A stretch of DNA of 7,152 bases. It comes from Rickettsiales bacterium. GTDB lineage: Bacteria; Pseudomonadota; Alphaproteobacteria; Methylaequorales; Methylaequoraceae. Location of the stretch: the NCBI GenBank assembly GCA_002711625.1, contig PARR01000034.1, forward strand, positions 1-7,152. Direction: 5' to 3'. How positions within the stretch are numbered: position 1 is the first letter of the stretch; each line of letters starts with the position of its first letter. The notes below the pieces were generated by a model. That model worked only from the letters and a program-made list of their open reading frames with translations. It did not search any database and was not told the DNA's origin. Below are positions 389-6,168 of the stretch, piece by piece. Position numbers and translations under genes: made by a program.

Positions 389-404
389 TGGCATCAAATT
401 TGCT
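389..404 (+). promoter_or_regulatory. sigma-54 (-24/-12) promoter for the lytic transglycosylase
   Basis: TGGCATCAAATTTGCT fits the sigma-54 consensus TGGCACGN4TTGCW closely. GG is at 390-391 and GC at 402-403, with the required 10 bases between them. The predicted transcription start is about 415, only about 2 nt before the ATG at 417. It lies wholly in the 31-bp gap between the two genes. Confidence 0.8.
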
Positions 405-416
405 CATTTACTTTTA

Positions 417-1022
417 ATGAATTTTTCTAAACTAAAACTTGCAACCATAATAATAATTTGTGTTTTTTCTTCTAACTCATATTCAATCGAATCAAAAGTT
501 TGTGAAAATTTAGCTGAAAAATTTGGCAGACAATTCAAAATACCTAATAAACTTCTATCCTCCATATCTATAGTTGAATCTGGTACTGTAAAGGAAAACA
601 AACTTATATCTTGGCCTTGGACATTAAATGTCGATGGAGAAGCAAAGTATTTTAAAACAAAAGAAGAAACTGTTAATTTTTTAGAATCTAATTTAAAAAA
701 ATTCAAAAATATTGATGTTGGTTGCATGCAAATTAGCACAAAATATCACTTACAAAAATTTAATAATGTTTCTGAATTAATTAATCCTGAGAATAACGTA
801 AAGTATGCTGCCAAATATTTAAGAAAACTTTTTCATACCCATAAAACTTGGAATGAAGCCATATCAAGATATCATTCTTCAATTCCTTCGCGAAAAAAAA
901 ATTATCTTTCAAAGGTTCATTATTTTTGGAAGAAACTAAGAGAAACCCGTACTCCAGAAACAACAAAAAAAAAATTAGATTTTTTTAAAAGTCAATTAAG
1001 GAAAGACTACCAAATATTATAG
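417..1022 (+). CDS. exported SLT-domain lytic transglycosylase
   Basis: Periplasmic lytic transglycosylase of 201 residues, expected to cleave MurNAc-GlcNAc glycan strands. Residues 1-23 form a signal peptide (basic start, IIII core, small residues before a likely cut after NSYS). The SLT fold covers about residues 27-170: the catalytic Glu is E54 in SIVESG, followed by the GCMQI motif (102-106), NVKYAAKYLRKL (127-138) and AISRYHSS (148-155). The segment SWPWTLNVDGEAKYF followed by NIDVGCMQIS is a form I associate with alphaproteobacterial SLT proteins (recall). The last 30 residues are a basic Lys/Arg-rich tail. The ATG has no Shine-Dalgarno sequence, and the upstream sigma-54 element predicts a 5' leader of about 2 nt, so translation is probably leaderless. 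No other start would keep the signal peptide. It lies between an M23 peptidase gene and a small sigma-54-controlled gene. A flagellar wall-opening role is inferred from this regulation. Confidence 0.85.
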   Translation: MNFSKLKLATIIIICVFSSNSYSIESKVCENLAEKFGRQFKIPNKLLSSISIVESGTVKENKLISWPWTLNVDGEAKYFKTKEETVNFLESNLKKFKNIDVGCMQISTKYHLQKFNNVSELINPENNVKYAAKYLRKLFHTHKTWNEAISRYHSSIPSRKKNYLSKVHYFWKKLRETRTPETTKKKLDFFKSQLRKDYQIL

Positions 1023-1065: not shown

Positions 1066-1236
1066 ATGAAAAATAAATATCAAAATAATATTAAATCAGA
1101 TAGAAAAATATTTGATACGCCTATGATTAAAATCACACATTATGAAAATGAAAAAACTATTAAAACAGAAACTTTTCCAGTTATTCATTTCTTAGATAAT
1201 GTTTCAAAAGGGTTGAAAAAAATTAGTTATAACTAA
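1066..1236 (+). CDS. small protein of unknown function (56 aa), sigma-54-controlled
   Basis: Not recognised. The protein has 56 residues starting MKNKYQNN, with no signal peptide or membrane segment. It is basic and polar at the start (Lys/Asn-rich), has a likely beta-prone middle (PMIKITHY, TIKTETFPVIHFL) and ends in a basic, possibly helical segment (NVSKGLKKISYN). It is probably cytoplasmic. That it is real rests on a near-consensus sigma-54 promoter and a good ribosome site, both at ideal spacing upstream. The last 4 bp overlap the last 4 bp of rpoN, which converges from the other strand. By regulation it probably belongs with motility functions. A small flagellar regulator, chaperone or motor accessory would all fit, but the sequence decides none of these. 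Confidence 0.7.
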   Translation: MKNKYQNNIKSDRKIFDTPMIKITHYENEKTIKTETFPVIHFLDNVSKGLKKISYN

Positions 1237-2690
1237 AAATTTATATTTTGAATTTTCATCATCCTTCTTCTCACTGAAGATGCAGGAATATTTAAAAGCT
1301 CTCTATATTTCGCCACTGTTCTCCTTGCCAAATTAATTCCTTGACTTTGTAATTTGGAAACAATCATTTCGTCACTAAGTGGTGAATTTAGCGGTTCATT
1401 TGAAATCAAGTTTTTAAGCGATTCTCTTACAGATGCCGCAGAATGGGATTCTCCGCCATGTACACTATTAATCGAAGCACTAAAGAAAATCTTCATTTCA
1501 AAAATACCAATGGGAGTAAGCATCAATTTATCTGAAGTAACTCTACTTACAGTACTTTCATGCATGTCAATCTTTCTCGCTACATCTTTAAGAATCATTG
1601 GTTTGAGGAATCTTTTTCCTTTTTCAAAAAATAATTTTTGTTGATTCACAATCTCTGAACTTATTTTCAATGTAGTAATGTTTCGTTGTTGTATTGCTTT
1701 AATTAACCAACGAGCAGAGTTAAGATTGTCTGAAATATATTTTTTATCTGATTCACCACACTGTAAAGCTTCTATCTCTTTAACATAGTCATCATTTAAA
1801 GTAATTTTTGGAAGCGTACTATCATTTAATTCTACTTCCCAATCATTTCTATTTTTTTTAACAATTACATCAGGATGGAAAATATTATTTTCATCATCTG
1901 GATATTTGGTACCAGGCCTTGGATTTAGTTCTCGTATTAATTTAATATTTTCTTTAAGTGCATCCTCTTTAAGATTCGTAAGCCTTTGTAAATTTTTCAG
2001 ATCTCCGTTTCCTAAAAGTTCTAAGTTATCAATAATAAGATTTCTTTCTTGACTAAGATCACCAGTATTTCTTAATTGTATTTTTAGGCATTCGGCGAGA
2101 TTTCTTGCAAAAACTCCATTAGGTTCAAATTCTTGCATAGTGGTTAAAACTTTTTTTATTTCATTAATATCATATCCACTGAATGAAGAAATATCTTCAA
2201 GATTGGTAGTTATCCATCCAGAAGGTTCAATGTAGTCAATTAGTATGTCAGATATTTCTTTTTCATTATGTGTCTGGAATTCGATGCTAGATTGATTTTT
2301 AAGAATATTTTTCAGATTTATTTTTTCGCTTACTGTCTGTTCTACAATACTTCCCGTATCGATACTTTCATAAGAAGATAATTTTGAATTTGTTTGACTT
2401 ACTGAAACTTCGGTATCAAAGCGATTCTCGTAATCATCAATCTTTGGCTCATCTTTAAGAGATTCACCCGAATCGAAAGATTCACATAAATCCTGCGTAT
2501 CACTTTCAACAAGTTCAGTTTTTTCTTCTTCGTTATTGTTCTCAAGAAATGGATTTTCTTCTAACTCTTTATTAACTAATTCACATAGTTCGATATTATT
2601 AAGTTGTAGAAGTTTAATTGCTTGCTGTAGCTGTGGAGTCATCACCAAGGATTGACTTTGTTTTAGTTTTATATTCTGTGTTATCTGCAT
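1233..2690 (-). CDS. rpoN: RNA polymerase sigma-54 factor RpoN
   Basis: Alternative sigma factor that directs RNA polymerase to -24/-12 promoters and needs an AAA+ enhancer-binding activator to open DNA. It has 485 residues from this start, normal for the family. Region I (1-50) has the typical LKQSQSLVMTPQLQQAIKLL glutamine-rich helix. An acidic, low-complexity region II follows (about 51-100), then the core-binding domain. The helix-turn-helix that reads the -12 element is at about 368-384 (KDVARKIDMHESTVSRV, then PIGIFEMKIFF). The RpoN box ARRTVAKYRE (455-464) reads the -24 element, so the protein looks intact. The start at 2690 is chosen because AAGGAG ends 7 nt upstream; the adjacent ATG at 2693 (4-nt spacing) is possible. 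A longer frame from a TTG at 2768 lacks family similarity in its extra residues. The usual lptB/hpf/ptsN neighbours are absent. Four likely target promoters lie within the window. Confidence 0.97.
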   Translation of the reverse strand: MQITQNIKLKQSQSLVMTPQLQQAIKLLQLNNIELCELVNKELEENPFLENNNEEEKTELVESDTQDLCESFDSGESLKDEPKIDDYENRFDTEVSVSQTNSKLSSYESIDTGSIVEQTVSEKINLKNILKNQSSIEFQTHNEKEISDILIDYIEPSGWITTNLEDISSFSGYDINEIKKVLTTMQEFEPNGVFARNLAECLKIQLRNTGDLSQERNLIIDNLELLGNGDLKNLQRLTNLKEDALKENIKLIRELNPRPGTKYPDDENNIFHPDVIVKKNRNDWEVELNDSTLPKITLNDDYVKEIEALQCGESDKKYISDNLNSARWLIKAIQQRNITTLKISSEIVNQQKLFFEKGKRFLKPMILKDVARKIDMHESTVSRVTSDKLMLTPIGIFEMKIFFSASINSVHGGESHSAASVRESLKNLISNEPLNSPLSDEMIVSKLQSQGINLARRTVAKYRELLNIPASSVRRRMMKIQNINF

Positions 2691-2697
2691 CATAATT

Positions 2698-2855: not shown

Positions 2856-3425
2856 GTGATAAAAATATTTCCATTTATTTTTACTAGTTTATTTTTTTTC
2901 TTAATTATCGCTAATGTGCGAAATTTGACACTAGATTTTGGCCAAAGTAATGAGCTAAATGAGTCAAATATAACAAACACAATGGTTAAAGAAGAATCAT
3001 TTAACAAAGCAATTAAAAGTTATGAGGAGCTAAATTCCAATCATACTGTTAATGATTATGAATCAATTGAAAAAAAAGTTATGAAAACAGATAGTTCAAG
3101 TATTAAAAAGAAATTAGAAGATGACTCACATTCCTTGTTTGAATTTAAAAATGATGAGAAAAAGTTTGAAGAAAAAAATTCTAATTATTACAAACATGAT
3201 CTTCAATTTGGAGCTTTCTCGAAAAAACAGAATGCGGTAAATCATAGTATAAAGGTTATTGATGTCTTAAAGACAAAATTTCCATATGTAGATGTTAAGG
3301 TGACTTTTGACAAAAAAAATAATCTTTATAAGGTAATTTCATCTCTAGATAATAAAAATTTATTAAAAAAGATTTGTGATGAAATTAATATGAAAAATTT
3401 GAGCTGTTTCTTAATAAAAAAATGA
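2856..3425 (+). CDS. membrane-anchored SPOR-domain protein
   Basis: A 189-residue inner-membrane protein with one N-terminal helix (about residues 5-21, IFPFIFTSLFFFLIIANV), a long charged, Asn/Ser/Lys/Glu-rich periplasmic linker (about 25-110), and a C-terminal SPOR domain (about 113-188). The SPOR signature is HDLQFGAFSKKQNA at the first strand, NNLYKVIS in the middle and NLSCFLI at the last strand. SPOR domains bind denuded glycan strands, most often at division septa, where amidases have removed the peptides. The start is GTG: an in-frame stop lies just upstream and the next Met would remove the membrane helix. No Shine-Dalgarno is visible. It is divergent from rpoN and overlaps the next gene by 4 bp (ATGA), so the two are probably co-translated. 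It could serve division or the flagellar base; the sequence does not say which. Confidence 0.8.
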   Translation: MIKIFPFIFTSLFFFLIIANVRNLTLDFGQSNELNESNITNTMVKEESFNKAIKSYEELNSNHTVNDYESIEKKVMKTDSSSIKKKLEDDSHSLFEFKNDEKKFEEKNSNYYKHDLQFGAFSKKQNAVNHSIKVIDVLKTKFPYVDVKVTFDKKNNLYKVISSLDNKNLLKKICDEINMKNLSCFLIKK

Positions 3426-3613
3426 AGACTTGTCGGATTTGTGTAGCCATAAGATATTTTTTGGCATTTGTACTGTTACTAATAATTGTATCAATTACAT
3501 TGAAAGACGATCTTCATTACTTCTCATTTGTGACACCATGGAATGCAGTCAAACTAATTTTTTTCCTTGGTTTTTGTTTGTTTGTTTATAAAATTTTTCA
3601 GGCAAAGAATTAA
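3422..3613 (+). CDS. small two-helix membrane protein, unknown function
   Basis: A 63-residue protein, not firmly recognised. It starts MKTCRIC, with a CxxC pair (C4, C7) just before the first hydrophobic helix (about residues 9-26). A short polar loop (KDDLHYFSFVTPWNAV) and a second helix (about 44-59, LIFFLGFCLFVYKIF) follow, ending in a basic tail. Both ends are probably on the same side of the inner membrane. Its ATG overlaps the stop of the SPOR gene (ATGA), which supports expression and suggests the two proteins work together. The CxxC could bind metal or form a disulfide; with only one pair, a site shared between two subunits is possible. Its end is 4 bp from the end of the convergent DUF1566 gene. 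Confidence 0.7.
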   Translation: MKTCRICVAIRYFLAFVLLLIIVSITLKDDLHYFSFVTPWNAVKLIFFLGFCLFVYKIFQAKN

Positions 3614-3617
3614 GTGA

Positions 3618-4097
3618 TTACCTTTCTCTCAAAAATCTTACATATAATTTCTTTTGAGGAACAAACCTTCCATACGAATGTCCAGTGAAAAAATTTACTG
3701 ACCAATAAAATTTTGGAGACCACCAATTTTTTTGTGATGTCCAAAAAGGTTCAGCTGGGGTATTCGGAAAAATTTTTTTATCAATTTTCGCCCCTTTACA
3801 GCTCTTACAAATCAAGCTTTCCAATTCTTTTCTCTTAGGGAGTCTCCAATTTCCCTCTAATTGTTCATTAATAATAGTATTAGCTTCAACAATTTCATTT
3901 TGATCAAGTTTAACTGGCTGCCCTAAGCATTGGTTTTTAGAATCACTCCACTGTTGTCCGGCTGAGCATTTCAACCATTCAACTTTATTTTTTAAATCAA
4001 TTACATAGTAGCCCTTATCAATAAAATTTTGAGATTCAGCAAAATTAAACCTAAGAATAAGCAATATAAAAGAAAAAAAAATAACAGTTTTGTTCAT
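3618..4097 (-). CDS. exported DUF1566 (Lcl C-terminal-like) domain protein
   Basis: A 159-residue secreted or periplasmic protein. Residues 1-20 are a signal peptide (Lys at 3, hydrophobic core VIFFSFILLIL, likely cut near FAES). The rest fits the DUF1566 family: VEWLKCSAGQQWSDSKNQC with C44 and C57, then WRLPKRKELESLI (84-96), the IFPNTP and FWTS segments, YWSVNFFTG (131-139) and YVRFLR at the end. Four cysteines (44, 57, 97, 100) could form two disulfides. The family occurs in bacterial surface and adhesion proteins, such as the C-terminal part of Legionella Lcl; its biochemical role is mostly unknown. Here it stands alone without a repeat or anchor domain. It shares a back-to-back sigma-54 promoter with motA, so expression with the flagellar motor is likely. 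A periplasmic or surface motility accessory is inferred from this alone. The start codon is the only one that keeps the signal peptide; its ribosome site is weak. Confidence 0.8.
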   Translation of the reverse strand: MNKTVIFFSFILLILRFNFAESQNFIDKGYYVIDLKNKVEWLKCSAGQQWSDSKNQCLGQPVKLDQNEIVEANTIINEQLEGNWRLPKRKELESLICKSCKGAKIDKKIFPNTPAEPFWTSQKNWWSPKFYWSVNFFTGHSYGRFVPQKKLYVRFLRER

Positions 4098-4144
4098 GTG
4101 TAAAATTATACTAAATTTTTTATTTAAAAAAAAGTTTGATGTTT

Positions 4145-4160
4145 TGGTATTAAAGTTGCA
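4145..4160 (+). promoter_or_regulatory. sigma-54 (-24/-12) promoter for the motA-motB operon
   Basis: TGGTATTAAAGTTGCA has GG at 4146-4147 and GC at 4158-4159 with exact 10-base spacing and a full TTGCA. The predicted start is near 4171, 41 nt before the motA ATG. It lies in the 114-bp intergenic region between motA and the divergent DUF1566 gene. Confidence 0.75.
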
Positions 4161-4172
4161 GTTTCTATACCA
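4157..4172 (-). promoter_or_regulatory. sigma-54 (-24/-12) promoter for the DUF1566 gene
   Basis: Read on the minus strand, TGGTATAGAAACTGCA has GG (4171-4170) and GC (4159-4158) with exact 10-base spacing. The predicted start is near 4146, giving a leader of about 49 nt to the ATG at 4097. It shares its TGCA with the plus-strand motA promoter, so the two overlap head to head. The match is slightly weaker than the other three (CTGCA in place of TTGCA). Confidence 0.6.
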
Positions 4173-4211
4173 AAGTATTATTTTAATATAACATATATGG
4201 AAAAATTTTAA

Positions 4212-4979
4212 ATGGATTTAGCTTCAATCATAGGATTATTAGGAACCTTAGGGATGATAGCTGGAGCTATGATTTCAGCGGGCGGACTTGGTGCATATAT
4301 AGATGTTCCTTCAATACTTATAGTATTTGGTGGAACCTTTTTTGCTGTGATGTATACAGCACCACTACCAACTTTCCTAGGAGCCTTTGGAGCCATGGGC
4401 AAAGCTTTTAAACCACCTGTTAAAAAAATGGATGAATTAATAACAAGAATTGTTGAATTAGCAGGAATAGCGAGGAAAGATGGAATGATGGCTTTAGAGG
4501 GTCAAGAAACTCCTGACGCTTTTTTTGATAACGGTCTGCAAATGTTAGTTGATGGAGCAGATGAAGCCAAACTAACAGTTCAAATGAAAAAAGAATTAAA
4601 GGCCATGGAGGAAAGACACTCTTCCAATATAGGTGTTGCTCAAGCTTGGGTTGACATTGCTCCTGCAATGGGCATGATTGGTACTCTAGTTGGTTTAGTT
4701 GCGATGTTAGGAAATATGGCAGACCCAAAAGCAATCGGTCCCGCTATGGCAGTTGCTCTATTGACAACTTTATACGGAGCTATGATAGCTAATACTATTT
4801 TCATGCCGATAGTGACTAAATTAAAAAATTATTCAGCTTATGAGAAAATCTATAGAGAGATGATTATAACTGGACTTCAATTTATATCAAGAGGTGAAAG
4901 CCCTAGAAATATTCAAGATCAGCTAATAGCTAACCTTCCACCCAAAGAAAAGCAGAAACTTATAGAATCAGCTGCATAA
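4212..4979 (+). CDS. motA: flagellar motor stator protein MotA, PomA (Na+) type
   Basis: Inner-membrane stator subunit that, with MotB, passes ions and turns the flagellar rotor. It has 255 residues, matching Vibrio PomA (about 253) rather than the longer E. coli MotA. There are four membrane helices (about 3-23, 31-50, 147-168, 178-200). The large cytoplasmic loop carries R88 and E96 in ARKDGMMALEGQE, the charged residues that contact FliG. TM3/TM4 contain DIAPAMGMIGTLVGLVAML and DPKAIGPAMAVALLTTLYGA. D31, T158 and T186, positions tied to Na+ conduction in PomA, align without offset. I therefore infer a sodium-driven motor. The start is preceded by only a weak GGA, 10 nt upstream. It is the first gene of a sigma-54 operon; motB begins 10 nt after its stop. 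Confidence 0.97.
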   Translation: MDLASIIGLLGTLGMIAGAMISAGGLGAYIDVPSILIVFGGTFFAVMYTAPLPTFLGAFGAMGKAFKPPVKKMDELITRIVELAGIARKDGMMALEGQETPDAFFDNGLQMLVDGADEAKLTVQMKKELKAMEERHSSNIGVAQAWVDIAPAMGMIGTLVGLVAMLGNMADPKAIGPAMAVALLTTLYGAMIANTIFMPIVTKLKNYSAYEKIYREMIITGLQFISRGESPRNIQDQLIANLPPKEKQKLIESAA

Positions 4980-4989
4980 GGAAGGAAGC

Positions 4990-6168
4990 ATGGCAGAAGA
5001 AAAAAAAGATAACAAAGAATCTACGCAAGAAGAAGAAGAACACGAATGCCCAAAGTGTCCCCCTAAAGGAGCACCAGCGTGGATGGCAACCTTTGCTGAT
5101 ATGGCCACATTATTGATGGCATTTTTTGTTCTAATTTTGTCATTTGCGGAATTCAATGTTCCAAAATTTAAACAAATAAGTGGAAGCATGAAAAATGCTT
5201 TTGGTATTCAAAGAATAGTGCCTGTTGTTGAACAACCCAAAGGAACAACAATCATGTCTTTAAACTTTAGTCCAAATCCTACGCCTTCGGTTCAGGAAAA
5301 TTTGAAACAACAAACAACTGAAACTGATCAACCAAATGTTGAATTAAATATAAAGACTCAAGATTTTGCCAATGATGAGTCTGAAAATGAAGACGCTGTA
5401 GAATTAGCAAAGAATATTGAAACAGCTGTGGCAAAAGGAGAAATTGAAGTAGAGGTTTTAGGTTCTAAAGTAATTGTTAATTTCACCCCAACCAAAGTAA
5501 AAGAAAAGGATTTACCTAATTTTCTTCAGGAAACATTGAATGCTATTGAAGCAGTTAAGTCGGCCTCGGGGAAATCAGACTCAGAAGTTTTGATTGGAGG
5601 TTTAGAAAAACAATTGGCTAAATTAGCCTCCGCATCAGCACAAAAAGGTAAAAATGATGCAAAATCCTCAGAAGGTTCTAACGCTGGTGAATCTGAAGAG
5701 ATCTCAATGGAACAAAAGAAAAAAGCTGAAATTGCAGAAGATAACTATAGAATTGCTCTTAAAGAAGAGATTGGTGAGGGCCTCATTAATATTGACAGAG
5801 AAGATGAAAAGGTTGTTATCACAGTTGGTTCAGGTGGGGCATTTAAATCAGGTTCTGCTGAGCTGACAAGTAAAGCTAAAAATATTATGAAAAAGATTGC
5901 AGATGTTAATGAGAAAGGTAAAAGTGAAATTCTTGTTTCTGGTCATACAGATGACAAACCGCTTACTTTCGGTTCAATTTACAGAGATAATTGGGATCTA
6001 GCAGCAGCACGTTCATCGTCAGTTGTACAAGAATTGTCAAGAACTGGTAAGTTGATGCCTAATCGAATGAAAGCCATTAGTTATGGAGAAACAAAACCAT
6101 TAGTATCGAATGATTCTGCATCCGGCAGAGAGAAAAATAGAAGAATAGAAATTGAAATAAATTATTAA
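4990..6168 (+). CDS. motB: flagellar motor stator protein MotB, PomB (Na+) type, with long linker
   Basis: Ion-channel partner of MotA that anchors the stator to peptidoglycan; 392 residues, against about 315 in Vibrio PomB. The cytoplasmic start is acidic and carries a CPKC motif (20-23) before PPKGAPAWMATFADMATLL; D37 is the essential ion-binding aspartate of the single membrane helix (about 33-53). The plug region FNVPKFKQISGSMKNAFGIQ and PKGTTI follow, as in PomB. The OmpA-like peptidoglycan-binding domain covers about 255-392, with SGHTDDKPL (317-325), YRDNWDLAAARS (331-342) and EKNRRIEIEI (381-390). The extra length is a linker (about 90-250) holding a degenerate copy of the domain's beginning (about 141-204; EIEVEVLGSKVIVNF) and a Lys/Ser/Glu-rich stretch. 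A strong Shine-Dalgarno (AAGGAAGG) overlaps the motA stop, so stator subunits are probably translated in step. Confidence 0.96.
   Translation: MAEEKKDNKESTQEEEEHECPKCPPKGAPAWMATFADMATLLMAFFVLILSFAEFNVPKFKQISGSMKNAFGIQRIVPVVEQPKGTTIMSLNFSPNPTPSVQENLKQQTTETDQPNVELNIKTQDFANDESENEDAVELAKNIETAVAKGEIEVEVLGSKVIVNFTPTKVKEKDLPNFLQETLNAIEAVKSASGKSDSEVLIGGLEKQLAKLASASAQKGKNDAKSSEGSNAGESEEISMEQKKKAEIAEDNYRIALKEEIGEGLINIDREDEKVVITVGSGGAFKSGSAELTSKAKNIMKKIADVNEKGKSEILVSGHTDDKPLTFGSIYRDNWDLAAARSSSVVQELSRTGKLMPNRMKAISYGETKPLVSNDSASGREKNRRIEIEINY

Follow-up and report, generated by a model that had tools for sequence, protein, structure and literature searches.

The window, by which we mean the whole stretch of 7,152 nucleotides analysed here, contains motA (4212..4979, plus strand; PF01618 MotA_ExbB, E=3.4e-27), followed by motB (4990..6168, plus strand; PF13677 MotB_plug and PF00691 OmpA), and, facing away from them, a gene for a predicted exported Lcl_C/DUF1566 protein of 159 aa (3618..4097, minus strand; PF07603, E=2.7e-20). 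The sigma-54 factor gene rpoN lies at 1233..2693 on the minus strand, and the activator-interacting, core-binding and DNA-binding domains of its product are all above the Pfam cut-offs. The stretch between rpoN and Lcl_C (2856-3613) encodes a 189-aa protein with a weak, sub-cut-off SPOR match and also holds a 63-aa frame; at a guess, the two are perhaps motor accessories like MotF. A single-direction sigma-54-like site without the opposite GG is located before a transglycosylase gene (389..404, plus strand).

The spacer between Lcl_C and motA is the site of a predicted overlapping divergent sigma-54 promoter dyad (4143..4174, both strands). The first-pass annotation had proposed here two opposed -24/-12 elements with exact GG-N10-GC spacing that overlap at TGCA, and direct reading of the window confirmed them: the motA-facing element TGGTATTAAAGTTGCA occupies 4145..4160 on the plus strand, the Lcl_C-facing element TGGTATAGAAACTGCA occupies 4172-4157 on the minus strand, and the TGCA at 4157-4160 is common to both. 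The GC at 4158-4159 belongs to the plus and the minus element alike, so that core bases are common to both orientations. The perfect 8-bp inverted repeat said to be formed by the -24 parts was likewise correct in coordinates, sequence and gap (TTTGGTAT at 4143-4150 and ATACCAAA at 4167-4174, 16 bp apart). When the starts are placed at GC+12, they are predicted at 4171 on the plus strand and at 4146 on the minus strand, each within the GG of the opposite element, which agrees with the claim that each start lies in the other's -24 box. The minus -12 reads CTGC instead of TTGC, and the palindromic TGCA by itself supplies half of the bases that make up this element.

The assembly comprises 1.34 Mb in 48 contigs, and the host bacterium is likely marine. 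We refer to its family as HIMB59-like, after the title of one record, and take HIMB59 to be the AEGEAN-169 clade. Sigma-54 and enhancer-binding proteins are both encoded in the genome, which has five PF00158 matches, two of them on the window's contig. These two enhancer-binding-protein genes adjoin each other on the rpoN contig, facing apart (L173:2173-3327, minus strand, and 3507-4571, plus strand); a Fis-like helix-turn-helix was seen by eye at the end of the plus-strand protein only (L173:3507-4571).

Conservation of the opposed elements upstream of motA

The family sample consisted of 32 genomes, 22 of which yielded a motA locus with upstream sequence. The motA-facing element TGGTAT[TC]AAAGTTGCA was present in all 22 loci and the opposite GG, at the exact spacing, in 16 of them; the opposite arm was apparently lost in six loci, which belong to genera g9 (3 loci), g2 (2) and g11 (1). 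In the 16 arm-bearing loci the bases from TGCA to the arm vary in sequence and are constant in length, and the mean column entropy was 0.19 bits in the arm against 0.78 bits in the flank, with two of the eight arm columns fixed by the selection for CC. In the six arm-less loci the corresponding columns are no less variable than the flank (1.10 vs 0.88 bits).

The scan outside the family covered 80 named loci, the best 80 of 251 relatives, 61 of which are non-family. Forty of these were grouped as SAR116-type by the plus motif TGGTC[TC][TC]ATTCTTGCA, independently of the arm, and every one of the 40 (from the best 80 of 251 relatives) carries the opposite GG at N10. Their minus element is AGGCAYAAWTTCTGCA (one base different in L118) and is no mirror of the plus box, the two -24 boxes being unlike each other (TGGTCY on the plus strand, AGGCAY on the minus strand); the mean column entropy was 0.15 bits in the opposite -24 arm and 0.62 bits in the downstream flank. 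Among the other 21 non-family loci, again from the best 80 of 251 relatives, 18 have the motA site, with CC in L153 alone, and in three the site is absent from the scanned stretch. The first-pass annotation had named relatives with the motA-facing element alone as evidence against its proposal, and such relatives do occur in part: the motA-facing element stands alone in 6/22 family loci and in 17/18 of the other non-SAR116-type loci with a site (the latter from the best 80 of 251 relatives).

In a tree of MotA+MotB built from 45 chosen rows, the SAR116-type clade and the family are sisters (99/93), and the arm label requires five changes. These changes are most simply explained by a single gain in the common ancestor of both clades, by three later losses within the family (g2, g9 and g11) and by the isolated case of L153.

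As read from the alignments, both elements and their exact spacing are conserved, although the spacer sequence and the -24 boxes are free to vary. Since the SAR116-type plus and minus boxes differ, the constraint is the promoter consensus and not the palindrome; symmetry is a lineage detail, and the lasting feature is the sigma-54 match on each strand. The first-pass reading is accordingly borne out for the two GG-N10-GC elements and needs correcting in that perfect symmetry is not what relatives conserve, the -24 boxes differing in the SAR116-type motA loci and in the flgB dyad described below.

A second dyad upstream of flgB and control sites

A loose pattern search (TGG, TGCA, CCA) led to a second predicted overlapping divergent sigma-54 dyad in the window's genome, TGGTTTAGAATTTGCAAATTGAATGCCA, at G000:C34:11504-11531 (L182:2005-2032). 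Its minus side faces flgB, identified by a PF00460 match barely above the cut-off and followed by frames that by eye resemble flgC, flgD and flgE, and its plus side faces a 319-aa frame with no match in Pfam or NCBIfam. A FlgB match was obtained in 26 family genomes, 25 of them readable, and the opposite GG is present in all 25, including genera without the motA arm; a divergent frame accompanies it in 24 of the 25. The opposite arm has an entropy of 0.00 bits compared with 1.20 bits in the downstream flank, the variation beginning directly outside the arm, and the two arms differ from each other (TGGCAY vs TGGTTT). The flgB dyad is thus better conserved in the family than the one at motA. Judged by its sequence, the dyad design is likely reused at flgB, and the presence of two elements of like design in one genome suggests that this kind of genetic switch has been employed more than once.

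The flgB dyad had at first appeared as a candidate for a trait limited to the HIMB59-like family, which was rejected, as ten further genomes have the opposite GG. Seven of them came from 33 outgroup genomes searched, 21 of which had a FlgB match: L218, L219 and L220 (AG-426), L221+L239, L222 (IMCC14465), L230 and L236+L241. Three more (L249, L250 and L251; L247 and L222 denote one and the same site) were added by a class-wide search in which 205 of 385 genomes matched FlgB and 25 loci were read. A divergent frame lies 21-31 bp from the dyad in eight of the ten genomes; the longest frame of L249 extends into the dyad, and in the genome of L236+L241 the divergent frame is absent or 63 bp off. 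By eye, the start of the divergent protein resembles that of the family gene in nine of the ten, the exception being the genome of L236+L241. In twelve SAR116-type genomes (13 loci) the element facing flgB is retained, with the opposite GG in 0/13; where measured, their divergent frame is 70-89 bp off (L223, L232 and L235) or 31 bp off in L226, which lacks the opposite GG despite this short distance. The opposite GG is also absent from the genome of L237+L242 and from L255 and L257-L259, L256 has CC with an opposite reading that is not TGG, and no site was found upstream of flgB in L238. L260-L275 are distant flagella, most of them without such a flgB site. One of these, L273, has TGGCACAATCCTTGCA upstream of flgB with an opposite TGG at the exact spacing and no divergent frame in the scan; another, L266, has CC without TGG.

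The 28-bp string of the motA dyad has a single occurrence in the assembly of 1.34 Mb. We scored 181,326 windows in 15 genome stretches with a weight matrix built from 22 sites at other loci; the plus site ranked 2nd and the minus site 7th, in stretches chosen for holding sigma-54-like sites and with the score of the minus site obtained partly free through the shared TGCA. The SAR116-type minus motA sites are weak by this matrix (ranks 79-111 of 181,326). The strict dyad pattern matched 3/385 genomes of the class, all of them family members and all at motA. In the phylum sample it matched 2/398, namely the window's genome and one site within a pilin-like reading frame; the latter is at chance level, since a backwards control pattern matched 3/398. 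The strict pattern misses the SAR116-type motA dyads and the flgB dyads, so its counts are no measure of how frequent the wider design is, and the loose pattern matched in 30/32 family genomes, up to six times in one.

For comparison within the window's genome we collected, from pattern and matrix matches and not exhaustively, eight further sigma-54-like sites that do not lie in long frames. The opposite GG was present in 0/8 and a divergent frame within 50 bp in 0/8, whereas both features occur at the motA and flgB sites (2/2 vs 0/8; post hoc Fisher P=0.022). For six of the eight, the script located a downstream frame no more than 200 bp away, and two have a divergent frame at 89 and 127 bp. 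The idea that sigma-54 promoters in general carry the arm was rejected on these eight armless sites. At four single sigma-54-like sites (window 389-417, two in L174 and one in L178) an ATG lies 27-28 bp from the start of the site, one or two bases beyond the predicted transcription start, and the transcripts from these sites may be leaderless.

Proposed bidirectional use of the site and its alternatives

We consider it probable that sigma-54 polymerase binds one shared site either way and would at any one time start only one of the two units, motAB or Lcl_C. In favour of this are the kept opposite GG at family and SAR116-type motA loci, the second dyad at flgB, the presence of the arm in the window's genome where a divergent gene is close, and the rpoN and enhancer-binding-protein genes on the contig; against it are the six family motA loci without the arm, with Lcl_C present in the five readable ones, the lack of the opposite GG at the 13 SAR116-type flgB loci, the CTGC of the minus -12 with its palindromic TGCA, and the weak matrix scores of the SAR116-type minus motA sites. 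The sigma-54 closed complex is stable and awaits its activator, and opening of the promoter needs an ATP-driven activator. At the window dyad, each -24 box would direct the polymerase into its own orientation, and the activator would open whichever of the two is loaded. Because the elements have the -12 in common, the geometry implies that the two closed complexes would not fit together. The minus element would then be used, with RpoN and an enhancer-binding protein required, and two gene units of one flagellum would be expected to respond to a common switch-on signal and to limit each other's output. We accordingly predict minus-strand transcription, dependence on rpoN and competition between the directions. 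Competition should come more easily to a stable sigma-54 closed complex than to its sigma-70-type equivalent, and the shared site could give real mutual exclusion because this complex is stable while awaiting the activator. The two conserved natural dyads, together with the lineages that lost one arm, make the exclusion idea testable.

Three other explanations of the opposed elements were weighed. The arms could be an operator whose two TTTGGTAT half-sites are bound by a dimeric regulator, with control limited to the motA promoter. The perfect 8-bp arms in the window and the arm spacing, fixed in 16/16 arm-bearing family loci, are what such an operator would give, but in 40/40 SAR116-type loci (from the best 80 of 251 relatives) the arms are not mutual repeats while both GG-N10-GC spacings are kept, the flgB arms differ too (TGGCAY vs TGGTTT), and the arm is missing at the eight other sigma-54-like sites examined in the window's genome. 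We set this explanation aside on the unlike arms at SAR116-type motA and family flgB loci and regard it as quite unlikely. A simple coincidence is highly improbable: the TGCA is palindromic, so CC at one spot suffices for a minus element, and both the lone CC of L153 (one of the 18 other motA loci with a site, from the best 80 of 251 relatives) and the frequency of loose dyads in family genomes fit with it, but the expectation for CC from the local C frequency is ~0.0006-0.005 as against the observed 16/22, 40/40 (from the best 80 of 251 relatives) and 25/25, and two conserved dyads occur in one genome.

It is also unlikely, in our judgement, that the motA direction alone is productive, in which case the minus element would be a relic or a place where polymerase docks unproductively, and Lcl_C would be served by another promoter. 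This would account for the three losses of the arm in the family with Lcl_C kept and for the sigma-70-like sequence that precedes Lcl_C in AG-426 loci (see below). It sits poorly with an opposite -24 box that varies little or not at all in the SAR116-type motA and family flgB loci, and with the presence of the arm, within the window's genome, only where a divergent gene is close.

The best reading of the window dyad is thus a putative sigma-54 bidirectional promoter, corresponding to the bidirectional promoters known for sigma-70 in E. coli, which were reportedly described by Warman et al. (2021, Nat Microbiol). Two sigma-54 promoters facing apart also have a parallel in the hydrogenase 3 cluster of E. 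coli, whose divergent NtrA-dependent promoters are said to have been described by Lutz et al. in 1990; these are reportedly separate elements, whereas those of the window both lie within the same 28 bp. It is an evenly balanced question whether the dyads at flgB and motA represent a distinct class of sigma-54 bidirectional promoters in alphaproteobacterial flagellar systems, that is, a 28-bp either/or switch that would hold closed polymerase in either orientation and couple two flagellar gene units.

The bidirectional, or pseudo-symmetrical, sigma-70 promoters of E. coli are opposite-strand promoters with a common core (PMC12825309), and the likeness to the window lies in this core. By its sequence, the window element can be classed as bidirectional in the same sense as regards the common core bases, exclusion being what we infer; the common core is the sigma-54 -12 TGCA and not a shared sigma-70 -10 element, and neither sigma54, sigma-54 nor RpoN is mentioned in the text of PMC12825309. 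According to the same text, sigma-70-type bidirectional promoters compete when one direction is substantially activated, the interference lowers cell-to-cell noise, and basal activity is reported to be too low for much polymerase competition (PMC12825309).

The Fla1 flagellum of Rhodobacter sphaeroides is controlled by RpoN2, FleQ and FleT, and its MotA and MotB belong to the FleQ-FleT class (PMC7277832); the rpoN gene and the two enhancer-binding-protein genes of the window's contig resemble this arrangement, and a DUF1566 gene or an overlapping promoter is not named in the passages of that paper. Divergent flagellar pairs likewise occur in the Fla2 system of R. sphaeroides, where the promoters are CtrA-controlled and, in the abstract opening of PMC6180460, not described as sigma-54. 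Passages of PMC8743547, PMC10794520, PMC3844500 and PMC3247240 deal with divergent promoters or with divergent spacers that carry RpoN sites, in no case with a shared element, and among the titles and abstract openings of the open-licence PMC papers listed no description of fully overlapping divergent sigma-54 promoters was recognised.

The divergent Lcl_C gene

The first-pass annotation had also tied the exported DUF1566 protein to motAB, and this was borne out as a neighbourhood only. Lcl_C is upstream of and divergent from motA in 21/21 family loci with enough sequence (in one further locus the contig ends) and in 61/61 non-family motA loci (from the best 80 of 251 relatives), giving 82/82 in total. 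The window protein matches PF07603 with 73.2 bits (Pfam cut-off 34.9), and four cysteines are invariant among 25 aligned members. Its predicted model is lectin-like (pLDDT 94.1); the top Foldseek match was 8q4e, the C-terminal domain of Legionella Lcl, with a modest E=5.8e-3 and TM 0.47/0.56, and there was none at E<=0.001. A Lcl_C profile gave no match among the sequences of solved structures, and the sole NCBIfam match, below the cut-off, was a leptospiral adhesin model. A predicted exported lectin-like protein is tied to the stator genes by a conserved neighbourhood across several alphaproteobacterial groups, and from this neighbourhood and the signal-like N-terminus we would guess that it is an envelope protein acting near the stator. 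Open-licence PMC papers on Leptospira and Legionella contain DUF1566 together with motA or flagellar.

Loss of Lcl_C as the cause of arm loss was rejected, as the gene is present, once with a stop, in all five readable arm-less family loci; in these loci no convincing alternative Lcl_C promoter was seen by eye. The stop is in L011 (G022), where Lcl_C is broken in frame, leaving an 84-aa frame, while the match spans 160 columns; either gene decay or an assembly error would explain it. In the AG-426 group (our label), a sigma-70-like promoter, TTGGCA-N17-TATAAT, precedes Lcl_C in the six loci read of nine (L160, L162, L163, L164, L166 and L168) and is distinct from the motA sigma-54 site. In L170, TGGCAAATTTCTTGCA lies on the minus strand ~90 bp before motA and ~150 bp from the Lcl_C gene, which it faces, without a motA-facing partner; this sequence hints that another lineage, too, may place Lcl_C under sigma-54.
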